A DNA stretch of 21,044 nucleotides, taken from IMG/VR virus record IMGVR_UViG_3300033553_000150, positions 1 through 21,044 of that record; one strand, given 5' to 3'. The notes under the pieces were generated by a model. That model had not been told where the DNA came from, made no database searches, and worked only from the letters and a program-made list of their open reading frames with translations. This DNA is from a virus. Each line of letters begins with the position of its first letter. Positions within the stretch are counted from its first letter, which is position 1. Made by a program: the position numbers and the translations under genes. Of this stretch, positions 1 through 21,044 are shown in pieces.

Positions 1-20
1 CCCCGAAGACGATCCCTAGG

Positions 21-92
21 AGCGGATGACGGGAATCGAACCCGCATCGTTAGTTTGGAAGACTAAGGCCCTAGCCATTAGACGACATCCGC
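21..92 (-). tRNA. tRNA-Gly (anticodon TCC)
   Basis: Read on the minus strand, the cloverleaf closes fully: acceptor GCGGATG/CATCCGC, anticodon stem TTAGT/ACTAA around loop CTTCCAA, T arm CGGG-TTCGATT-CCCG, discriminator T. CCA is not encoded. It is the last and most promoter-distal of five tRNA genes on this strand. Confidence 0.95.
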
Positions 93-96
93 ATGG

Positions 97-167
97 TGGC
101 TCCGGTGGGTAACGCGCCCACGTCTTAGGTTCTTCATACCTACGTTCTGCTTTTGAACTACAGAGCC
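97..167 (-). tRNA. tRNA-Phe (anticodon GAA) with an unusual T loop
   Basis: Minus-strand cloverleaf: acceptor GGCTCTG/CGGAGCC plus A, D stem GTTC/GAAC, anticodon stem TAGGT/ACCTA with loop ATGAAGA, T stem GTGGG/CCCAC. All stems pair, but the T loop reads CGCGTTA instead of the near-universal TTCRANN. It lies four bases from its neighbour, so the five tRNAs are probably cut from one transcript. Confidence 0.85.
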
Positions 168-171
168 ATCG

Positions 172-245
172 TGCGCCCCCTGGGATTTGAACCCAGATTC
201 CTCCCGTTAAGAGCGGGATGCAGTTGCCAGTTGTGCTAGAGGCGC
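172..245 (-). tRNA. tRNA-Lys (anticodon CTT)
   Basis: Minus-strand cloverleaf: acceptor GCGCCTC/GGGGCGC with one G-U pair, discriminator A, anticodon stem TCCCG/CGGGA with loop CTCTTAA, T arm CTGGG-TTCAAAT-CCCAG. The D stem is short (GCA/TGC). Four bases separate it from tRNA-Phe. Confidence 0.93.
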
Positions 246-300
246 AAAAGGAGTTACCGGGGCTCTACCGGGACGGGGCCAGGACCGCTCGTACTCCACG

Positions 301-371
301 TCGGGGTAGGAGGAATCGAACCTCCGTCGTATGATCCCAAATCATAAGTTCTACCACTGCACTACACCCCG
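301..371 (-). tRNA. tRNA-Pro (anticodon TGG)
   Basis: Minus-strand cloverleaf: acceptor CGGGGTG/TACCCCG, discriminator A, anticodon stem TATGA/TCATA with loop TTTGGGA, T arm GGAGG-TTCGATT-CCTCC. The 55 bases between it and tRNA-Lys form no further cloverleaf. Confidence 0.94.
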
Positions 372-488
372 TTTTGCCCCCGCACTTGCGCACGAGAGCA
401 CGACCGGGCTTGGCGTTCCCGGTCAAACACTCATTCCACTGTCCAGTTTTCAAACTATCCGAACAGGCGCGGCTCTCACCGGCTGTCG
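372..488 (-). other. tRNA spacer without a recognisable gene
   Basis: This 117-base spacer between tRNA-Asn and tRNA-Pro gives no cloverleaf. It holds one perfect 7-bp inverted repeat, GACCGGG (402-408) and CCCGGTC (418-424), with a 9-base loop and no following U-run. It could be a processing signal for the tRNA transcript. Confidence 0.4.
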
Positions 489-559
489 TTCCCCCACCAG
501 GACTCGAACCTGGATGAACTGGTTAACGGCCAGTCGTGTTGCCATTACACTACAAGGGA
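489..559 (-). tRNA. tRNA-Asn (anticodon GTT) with C at position 33
   Basis: Minus-strand cloverleaf: acceptor TCCCTTG/TGGGGGA (two G-U and one G-T-type wobble pairs), discriminator A, D stem GTGT/ACAC, anticodon stem ACTGG/CCAGT, T arm CCAGG-TTCGAGT-CCTGG. The anticodon loop is CCGTTAA, which places C rather than the almost invariant U at position 33. It is the first tRNA of the cluster in the direction of transcription. Confidence 0.9.
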
Positions 560-8504: not shown

Positions 8505-8710
8505 TCTACAAGCCCCCTTACCCAAATTGGCGGGTTTCCAGGATATGACCCCGTCCTCAATTGCCCTAACGAATCCGTAGGTGGTGGGGACTGAAAGATA
8601 GCCCATCGTTTCATACAATGGTCGCACTGCCAGACATCCCCCGGCGTACCATCCTCAACGGGGGGTAGGTGACACTCGTGATTCGGGGGCGTGTGCCTAA
8701 TCCATCCCAT
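8501..8710 (-). CDS. Small putative zinc-binding protein
   Basis: The 69-residue product has HECH at 11-14 and CDHC at 29-32, with DVWQCDHCMKRWAI resembling the zinc-ribbon half often seen in short actinophage proteins. A metal site from Cys13/His14 and Cys29/Cys32 is plausible. It starts inside the end of the kinase gene (14-base overlap) with only a weak ribosome site (GTGGTGG) and ends in an ATGA overlap with the next gene. Function unknown. Confidence 0.68.
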   Translation of the reverse strand: MGWIRHTPPNHECHLPPVEDGTPGDVWQCDHCMKRWAIFQSPPPTDSLGQLRTGSYPGNPPIWVRGLVE

Positions 8711-9242
8711 AAGCCACCACTCCCATCACCGTGCGCTCTAACTCCTTGAGCGTCCCACTATTGTCGATAGTAGGCAACTCCAGTTGGTCAAGCGCAGTTT
8801 CAGTAAGGTGCTTATCTTCGTTCTCACGACCACGAACAACCCGGAAGACCCTTCCACCGGCAGCAAGGATAGCGTCTACCTCATTGGGGAAACGTACATC
8901 ACTGACAACAATGTTCTCGTCTGGGGCAATATCCTCTAACCCCGAGTTTCTCACCCAGAAATCGGGGTCTACATTCCGAATAGCAACGCCCAGGTTTTGA
9001 AGGAACCTACGAACGGAAGAATTGGCCTTTGCATCTTCCCAATCATTCCCGTTCCACTCCAACAGGTAGGAAAGGTTTGTGGTGTCGCCGTTTCCGGGCA
9101 TTTCAATAACGGGGTCAATGTCCTCGGCCACTCGCTTGATAACGTCCGCGAATGCAATACGCCTAAACCCGTATTGTTCCACGAGAATAGACGCTGTTGC
9201 GTCCTTTCCGCTTCGCTTTTTTCCAGCCAGCCCAATCAACAT
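8697..9242 (-). CDS. Deoxynucleoside monophosphate kinase
   Basis: The 181-residue product should phosphorylate dNMPs with ATP to supply dNTPs for phage replication. It starts MLIGLAGKKRSGKDATAS, with the P-loop GKKRSGKD at 7-14. RRFLQNLGV (78-86), DPDFWV (92-97), VVSDVRFPNEV (112-122) and IDNSGTLKEL (159-168) are in the order seen in T4 gp1-type kinases. The ATG at 9242 has a strong GAGGAGG site and overlaps the DUF4406 stop as TAATG; a longer open frame exists but lies over the preceding gene. Confidence 0.9.
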   Translation of the reverse strand: MLIGLAGKKRSGKDATASILVEQYGFRRIAFADVIKRVAEDIDPVIEMPGNGDTTNLSYLLEWNGNDWEDAKANSSVRRFLQNLGVAIRNVDPDFWVRNSGLEDIAPDENIVVSDVRFPNEVDAILAAGGRVFRVVRGRENEDKHLTETALDQLELPTIDNSGTLKELERTVMGVVAYGMD

Positions 9243-9565
9243 TACAGTTCCTCCTCTACTTCGATACTGAATTTCCCCAACGCCACGGCGGTAGCATATT
9301 CGGCACGCGCCCCGGAAGAATTCTTCCACCCGGGCAACAAGACAATTCCGTCCGCGTGCAGGCACACTTGCGTCAAATCCCATAACAGCGCATCCTGCAA
9401 AACAAAGCCCTGATCTTCTAGGTCTTCCAAACCGTCGCAGCCGGTAACATCGAGACCCAATTCCTCATCATGCTCGGCGGGGCTAATCACGCGATACCCG
9501 AGGTCTCGGTAGTGGTACGCCGCGCGCCGAAATGCGGGAAAGTTGAACTCCGGGATACCTCTCAT
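9242..9565 (-). CDS. DUF4406 nucleoside 2-deoxyribosyltransferase-like protein, N-terminus cut off
   Basis: The 107-residue frame shows family features: MRGIPEFNFPAFRRAA, GYRVISPAEHDEE (24-36), and ADGIVLLPGWKNSSGARAE (71-89) with the DGIVLLPGW and SxGARAE parts that form the substrate pocket. DUF4406 proteins normally begin with a strand and loop of the type YVAGPMRG. Here the frame opens only at MRG, and the missing VYVAG lies immediately upstream in the same frame behind a TGA (9572-9574). Translation may restart at 9565, where GAGGA lies only three bases from the ATG. The neighbouring kinase fits a nucleotide-metabolism role. Without the first strand the protein may be impaired. Confidence 0.75.
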   Translation of the reverse strand: MRGIPEFNFPAFRRAAYHYRDLGYRVISPAEHDEELGLDVTGCDGLEDLEDQGFVLQDALLWDLTQVCLHADGIVLLPGWKNSSGARAEYATAVALGKFSIEVEEEL

Positions 9566-9613
9566 GGGTCCTCATCCGGCCACGTATACGCAAAGGTGCG
9601 AATTTGTGGTCAT
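9566..9613 (-). pseudogene. Detached N-terminus of the DUF4406 gene (in-frame TGA)
   Basis: An ATG at 9613 overlaps the endonuclease stop as ATGA and has AGAGGTG upstream. It reads MTTNSHLCVYVAG, then TGA, then Gly-Pro and the Met of the downstream frame. Joined, the sequence is VYVAG-stop-GPMRG; removing the six bases TGAGGA restores the family motif VYVAGPMRG exactly. The piece is therefore the original start of the DUF4406 gene, split by a small insertion or read through by an unknown route. Confidence 0.7.
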
Positions 9614-10200
9614 AGGGCATCACCTCTCTTCCAACTCTTGATGTAACTCAAGAGCAATTCTAGTGTTTCTTCCGAGTCTCCAAGTAAGCCCAGCGCCCGG
9701 TTGCAATTATTGCAAAGCAGTCCTCGAATGCACTTCCCGCAACTTCTTTGGTCTTTACAGCAGGAGTGGTCGTGATCTATAGACAGTCTAACAGGAACGC
9801 CATCGCGTACTTGTCTCTCTGGGCTACCACAGGACGCACAGACGTTTCCCTGCGCCTCGGCTTTAGCGTAATACTCTTCTGGAGTAAACCCAAATTTCTT
9901 GAGGTTCATAGCGAGAACGTATTTCTTCCCGTTTGGTGTTTTCCGAAAAGCCCTCTGCCAATCGCGCGCCTGTAAGTGGTCCCTATCAGGGAATTTCCTC
10001 CGTACGACCCCGGCGCACTTCTGGCACCGGGTAGCGCTCCCGGCCTTATTACCACCACAATCTGGGCAAGGGGGCGGCCCCCCTTTCCAGTTTGGAGACG
10101 TAGGGCCTACATCAGCGGATTTTTGACATGACCGGCAGAACTGGGAAACGGCAGATTTCAAACCGTCACACCCCGGACAACTATCCCGTCTGCTCCCCAT
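9610..10200 (-). CDS. Endonuclease VII-type (HNH-like) nuclease with zinc ribbons
   Basis: The 196-residue product ends in a recombination endonuclease VII domain: CASC at 121-124, SIDHDH at 140-145 with the catalytic His/Asp, and LLCNNCNRALGLLGD at 161-175 completing the zinc site. The first 65 residues add CPGC, CRSC, CPDC and CQKC pairs, likely two zinc ribbons for DNA contact. T4 endonuclease VII resolves branched DNA before packaging; phage relatives can also be free-standing homing-type nucleases, and the sequence does not decide between them. A strong GGAGGAACGG site precedes the ATG, which directly follows the upstream TAA. Confidence 0.85.
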   Translation of the reverse strand: MGSRRDSCPGCDGLKSAVSQFCRSCQKSADVGPTSPNWKGGPPPCPDCGGNKAGSATRCQKCAGVVRRKFPDRDHLQARDWQRAFRKTPNGKKYVLAMNLKKFGFTPEEYYAKAEAQGNVCASCGSPERQVRDGVPVRLSIDHDHSCCKDQRSCGKCIRGLLCNNCNRALGLLGDSEETLELLLSYIKSWKRGDAL

Positions 10201-21011: not shown

Positions 21012-21044
21012 CTGTCTCTTATACACATCTGACGCTGCCGACGA
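21012..21044. other. Nextera sequencing adapter (not phage DNA)
   Basis: The last 33 bases, starting CTGTCTCTTATACACATCT and ending GCTGCCGACGA, are the exact reverse complement of the Illumina Nextera Read 1 transposase adapter, whose first 19 bases are the Tn5 mosaic end. They are untrimmed library sequence at the end of the contig. Confidence 0.97.

Follow-up and report, generated by a model that had tools for sequence, protein, structure and literature searches.

The locus described here raises the question of what a stop codon is doing inside an otherwise well-preserved phage gene, and whether that stop breaks the gene or is in some way passed by the ribosome. The window, by which we mean the whole 21,044-nucleotide stretch that was analyzed, is a 21 kb virus record from a tailed phage whose minus strand encodes its terminase and capsid proteins. 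When these two proteins are compared with those of named phages, the closest counterparts (about 28–40% identity) come from phages that infect actinobacteria (Clavibacter, Arthrobacter, Microbacterium, and Streptomyces), and the host of the window phage is therefore likely actinobacterial as well. Next to the capsid gene, the phage carries a group of four tRNA genes, for Gly (TCC), Lys (CTT), Pro (TGG), and Asn (GTT) (19–559, minus strand). At the other end of the contig, positions 21012–21044 are Nextera transposase adapter (CTGTCTCTTATACACATCTGACGCTGCCGACGA); unrelated phage records contain the same sequence at 100% identity, and this end is a library artifact.

The gene in question belongs to a minus-strand run of three genes, each of which overlaps its successor. 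The stop of an endonuclease VII gene of HNH type (9610–10200, minus; Pfam PF02945, 61 bits) overlaps the DUF4406 start as ATGA (9610–9613), and the ATG of the downstream deoxynucleotide monophosphate kinase gene (8697–9242, minus; PF21448, 78.4 bits) shares one base with the DUF4406 TAA (TAATG). The kinase gene has its own Shine-Dalgarno sequence, GAGGAGG, located inside the tail of the DUF4406 gene, where the same bases encode the acidic stretch VEEEL (9242–9260, minus).

Between these neighbors, the DUF4406 frame reads MTTNSHLCVYVAG, TGA, and then GPMRGIPEFNFPAF..., and translation of 9613–9242 (minus) continues from the stop as GPMRGIPEF...EEEL to a second stop. The first part of the gene (9572–9613, minus) carries strand 1 and the conserved tyrosine and ends in the TGA, while the remainder (9242–9565, minus) is open from an inner ATG to TAA over 107 residues and matches the DUF4406 profile (PF14359) at 44.6 bits, above the cut-off of 22, which bears out the family assignment made earlier from the bare sequence. 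Coordinates checked by script place the TGA at 9572–9574, codon 14 of the gene, between strand 1 and the substrate-binding loop; GGA codons lie at 9575–9577 and 9569–9571 and the inner ATG at 9563–9565. Translation thus confirms that an in-frame TGA splits the gene, as the original prediction had claimed, and a GAGGA three bases before an ATG was found as it described (GAGGA, then CCC, then the inner ATG). What that prediction missed is the pair of identical glycine codons on either side of the stop (GGA-TGA-GGA, 9569–9577, minus, including the six extra bases), a feature that adds a hop over the stop as a fifth option to the four it had listed, namely inactivating insertion, restart at the inner ATG, stop readthrough, and sequencing error. 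The insert can equally be written as TGAGGA, GGATGA, GATGAG, or ATGAGG, and its exact boundaries are ambiguous. GATGAGG recurs 107 bases downstream in the DUF4406 gene; as this word occurs frequently on the strand, we make no claim from it as a template for the insert.

Two observations establish where the gene originally began. Pairing with the 16S tail around GAGAGGTGAT (9617–9628, minus) gives the start at 9613 a very strong Shine-Dalgarno duplex of −18.7 kcal/mol, the best of 284 minus-strand ATGs, whereas the corresponding value for the inner ATG (9565), −6.8, is unexceptional, being equaled or bettered by 32% of the ATGs on that strand. The endonuclease VII and nucleoside deoxyribosyltransferase genes of Arthrobacter phage Tuck likewise overlap by four bases, and the transferase, which there also follows the endonuclease, starts with an intact MILYLAGPM. 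Because of this strongest Shine-Dalgarno sequence and the Tuck overlap with its intact start, we conclude that the DUF4406 gene originally began at 9613, coupled to the endonuclease stop as had been proposed, and then gained the six-base insertion.

Comparison with homologues bears directly on whether the interruption is a property of the family. Ninety-one homologues were read at the motif (80 from viral and 11 from bacterial contigs), and every one has Y-x-A-G-P-M or a close variant without a stop or extra residue; none begins at MRG, and the upstream strand is present in each. An alignment of 68 rows shows the two additional codons in the window alone (a gap in 67 of 67 other rows), in agreement with the earlier claim that six extra bases interrupt a YVAGPMRG motif, and the tyrosine of the cut-off peptide is present in all 67. 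When the upstream peptide is included, the DUF4406 score rises from 44.6 to 53.3 bits and that of PHROG 355 from 71.8 to 82.5. The window gene retains 25 of the 26 positions conserved at ≥90%, and its frame is open to the natural stop. Some homologues were found through the PEFNFPAF stretch, whose apparent invariance is therefore inflated, but positions before the stop never served as search seeds. A degenerate pattern with TGA and one further codon at the interrupted site in the motif matched seven stretches across all viral contigs, none of them a family member. Because the homologues are uninterrupted and this search found no family member, the insertion is, as far as the compared sequences go, private to the window and not a family feature.

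The window gene shares with the DUF4406/PHROG 355 nucleoside 2-deoxyribosyltransferases of actinophages (e.g., Tuck gene 31) its sequence family and the conserved Y, D, W-x-x-S-x-G-A, and E positions, and it differs from them, among the members seen, in that it alone has six extra bases and an in-frame TGA in the AGPM motif. The family members checked have a frame that runs uninterrupted from strand 1 through the AGPM loop, and in the window this frame is cut. We therefore class the window gene, by sequence, as an interrupted gene of the DUF4406 family and not as an intact member. Annotations in this family vary (nucleoside deoxyribosyltransferase, deoxycytidylate deaminase, MazG-like pyrophosphatase, or hypothetical protein among phage hits H7, H28, H36, and similar), and Microbacterium phage Mabodamaca (OR613467.1; L123, 1441–1800) contains an intact DUF4406-family frame (LYISGPMQGIKHFNYPAF...) with no annotated gene.

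Close relatives of the window phage were sought in several ways. A terminase scan and two DNA patterns from the DUF4406 gene found none, and a capsid scan returned a single relative (L082, 52 kb, 66%), which yielded no DUF4406 gene. Kinase and endonuclease scans reached distant loci only, with a DUF4406 motif near the endonuclease in none of those viral contigs, and distant blastn of the 7–13 kb region against phages gave no match.

The position of the stop within the predicted fold indicates what it would cost the protein. A PDB profile search by sequence gave only weak matches, and fold comparison was used instead, with an AlphaFold2 model of the translation in which TGA is read as Trp (mean pLDDT 86, pTM 0.82). 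Strand 1 of this model comprises residues 8–12, immediately ahead of the stop, and confidence in the loop is low (64 for the block of residues 11–20). Among solved structures, the closest in fold are nucleoside deoxyribosyltransferases, MilB, and DNPH1, and the model shares the fold of these enzymes (Z 12.0 to 1t1j and 8.0–9.5 to NDT, MilB, and DNPH1 entries, over about 90–105 residues). The catalytic triad of DNPH1 is Y24/D80/E104 (PMC10603095). Aligned ranges start at model residue 5 with DNPH1 residue 19 and with residue 2 of the Chroococcidiopsis enzyme, and if the start is ungapped, we infer that model Tyr10 corresponds to DNPH1 Tyr24 and to Tyr7 of the Chroococcidiopsis enzyme. Y10, D79, and E105 are invariant or nearly so in the alignment and fit the DNPH1 triad by the offset of the aligned ranges only; Asp79 and Glu105 are likely the partners of Tyr10 in the predicted triad, and Y10 precedes the stop. 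A model of the 107-residue form made by restart at the inner ATG lacks strand 1 and loses the second strand too. Because strand 1 and the invariant, predicted catalytic-site tyrosine both sit in the cut-off peptide, this form should be inactive.

We consider it probable that a nucleoside deoxyribosyltransferase-like gene of the DUF4406 family in a tailed phage has been broken by a recent six-base, in-frame insertion carrying TGA, which makes the inactivating insertion the favored of the four options originally put forward. Most ribosomes would then make a 13-residue peptide and terminate, some might start again from the ATG that lies six bases further along and produce a presumably inactive 107-residue fragment, and the downstream kinase, having a strong ribosome-binding site of its own, would still be made. 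Within the phage population, the allele may be either fixed or one variant among others. In support of this reading, neither the 91 homologues nor the 67 aligned relatives carry a stop or an additional codon here. In-frame stops of orthologous bacterial genes are usually short-lived, and mobilome genes are over-represented among them (PMC7918605). The window gene resembles such stops in bacterial genes under purifying selection in having a lone in-frame stop in an otherwise intact gene, and it differs in that the lesion is an insertion, not a point substitution, and is known from one sequence only (PMC7918605). Because everything downstream is intact (the conserved positions as well as the open frame), the insertion looks recent, or else its effect is bypassed; with no close relative found in any collection, we infer its recency from this preservation. 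Two points count against a broken gene. The downstream frame is wholly preserved and free of further lesions, as would equally be expected under a bypass, and matched flanking codons are expected in about 2–3% of stop-bearing six-base insertions.

The matched codons suggest an alternative that we regard as unlikely, in which the peptidyl-tRNA-Gly leaves the first GGA, skips the TGA, re-pairs with the second GGA, and resumes at CCC. Nine bases could thereby yield one glycine and the exact YVAGPMRG, at an efficiency that is low and adventitious or has been raised by selection. The identical take-off and landing codons flank the TGA in the arrangement of T4 gene 60, where a GGA take-off codon with an adjacent stop is matched by a GGA landing codon (PMC11194080), and a +6 hop would regenerate the very motif found in all homologues. 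Matched flanks were rare in simulation, ranging from 1.8% of six-base inserts carrying one stop when the insert was random to 3.2% when it was copied locally, which is suggestive, and they are seen at none of the 25 natural stops in the window. Among the tRNAs encoded by the phage, a tRNA-Gly (anticodon UCC) reads GGA and is perhaps the one that hops. However, this is a single sequence in which the matched flanks were noticed after the fact, and slippage-type insertions often duplicate neighboring bases, so the flanks may be a mutational by-product. The site has no unusual RNA structure (folding is weaker than in shuffles, with z of +0.9 and +1.2), and the 13-residue leader has no T4-like nascent-peptide signal and no KKYK-like stretch. 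The likeness to T4 gene 60 is accordingly confined to the stop directly after GGA and the matched landing codon; the gap there is 50 bases as opposed to six here, the window lacks the take-off stem-loop as well as the peptide signal, and bypass here is a candidate. A closer parallel is found in synthetic constructs in which, as reported in a 2016 review (PMC5009743, its ref. 54), ribosomes hop over a stop between identical codons, turning nine bases into one amino acid with the frame unchanged; the window differs from the constructs that review describes in being a natural sequence and a candidate only. According to the same review, which covers both T4 gene 60 and the synthetic stop-hops, in-frame examples from nature are not known (PMC5009743). 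That a natural in-frame hop lets this phage tolerate the insertion, with the full-length, family-standard enzyme produced in lower, possibly regulated amounts, is in our estimate quite unlikely.

An assembly or sequencing artifact, with the six bases absent from the real phage, is likewise improbable. The record is a single contig, and its last 33 bases are Nextera adapter, so trimming was imperfect; nevertheless, an in-frame insertion of six bases outside a homopolymer would be an atypical short-read error, the inserted bases are absent from the adapter, and the flanking sequence is clean.

Readthrough of the UGA by a near-cognate tRNA, probably tRNA-Trp, would give VAG-W-G-PMRG, with two extra loop residues after strand 1. 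The Trp-containing translation folds well, as noted above, and keeps the other conserved positions but one. The two residues would nevertheless lengthen the AGPM loop, which is nearly invariant and has no residue at these positions in any aligned homologue, and in which the confidence of the model is low (64), and the tRNAs of the window (Gly UCC, Lys CUU, Pro UGG, and Asn GUU) include no suppressor. Because TGA ends 13 of the 35 listed ORFs and a suppressor tRNA is absent, TGA is an ordinary stop here, and we give readthrough very little weight.

Termination followed by restart at the ATG at +6, to give a partly or fully functional 107-residue protein, possibly with the 13-residue strand-1 peptide acting in trans, is equally hard to credit. 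The frame is intact past the inner ATG, GAGGA lies ahead of it, and +6 falls inside the −8 to +10 range treated as predictive of coupling, for which 15 bases of the upstream gene are enough in E. coli (PMC10666635). The earlier suggestion of a restart thus holds insofar as one is possible, but the site is unremarkable, with an ordinary Shine-Dalgarno energy (−6.8) and a spacing of only three bases between GAGGA and ATG. Strand 1 and the invariant tyrosine at the predicted catalytic site would both be missing from the product, and the upstream strand is present in all 91 homologues checked. Reassignment of TGA (e.g., code 4 or 25) is ruled out by those same 13 TGA-terminated ORFs and the lack of a suppressor tRNA.

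Accessory nucleotide-metabolism genes of phages frequently gain and lose function, and as a broken gene the DUF4406 gene of the window is ordinary. It is worth keeping in view for its unusually clean lesion, in which the insert builds the exact codon-stop-codon layout for which synthetic constructs, as the 2016 review presents them, showed ribosome hopping.
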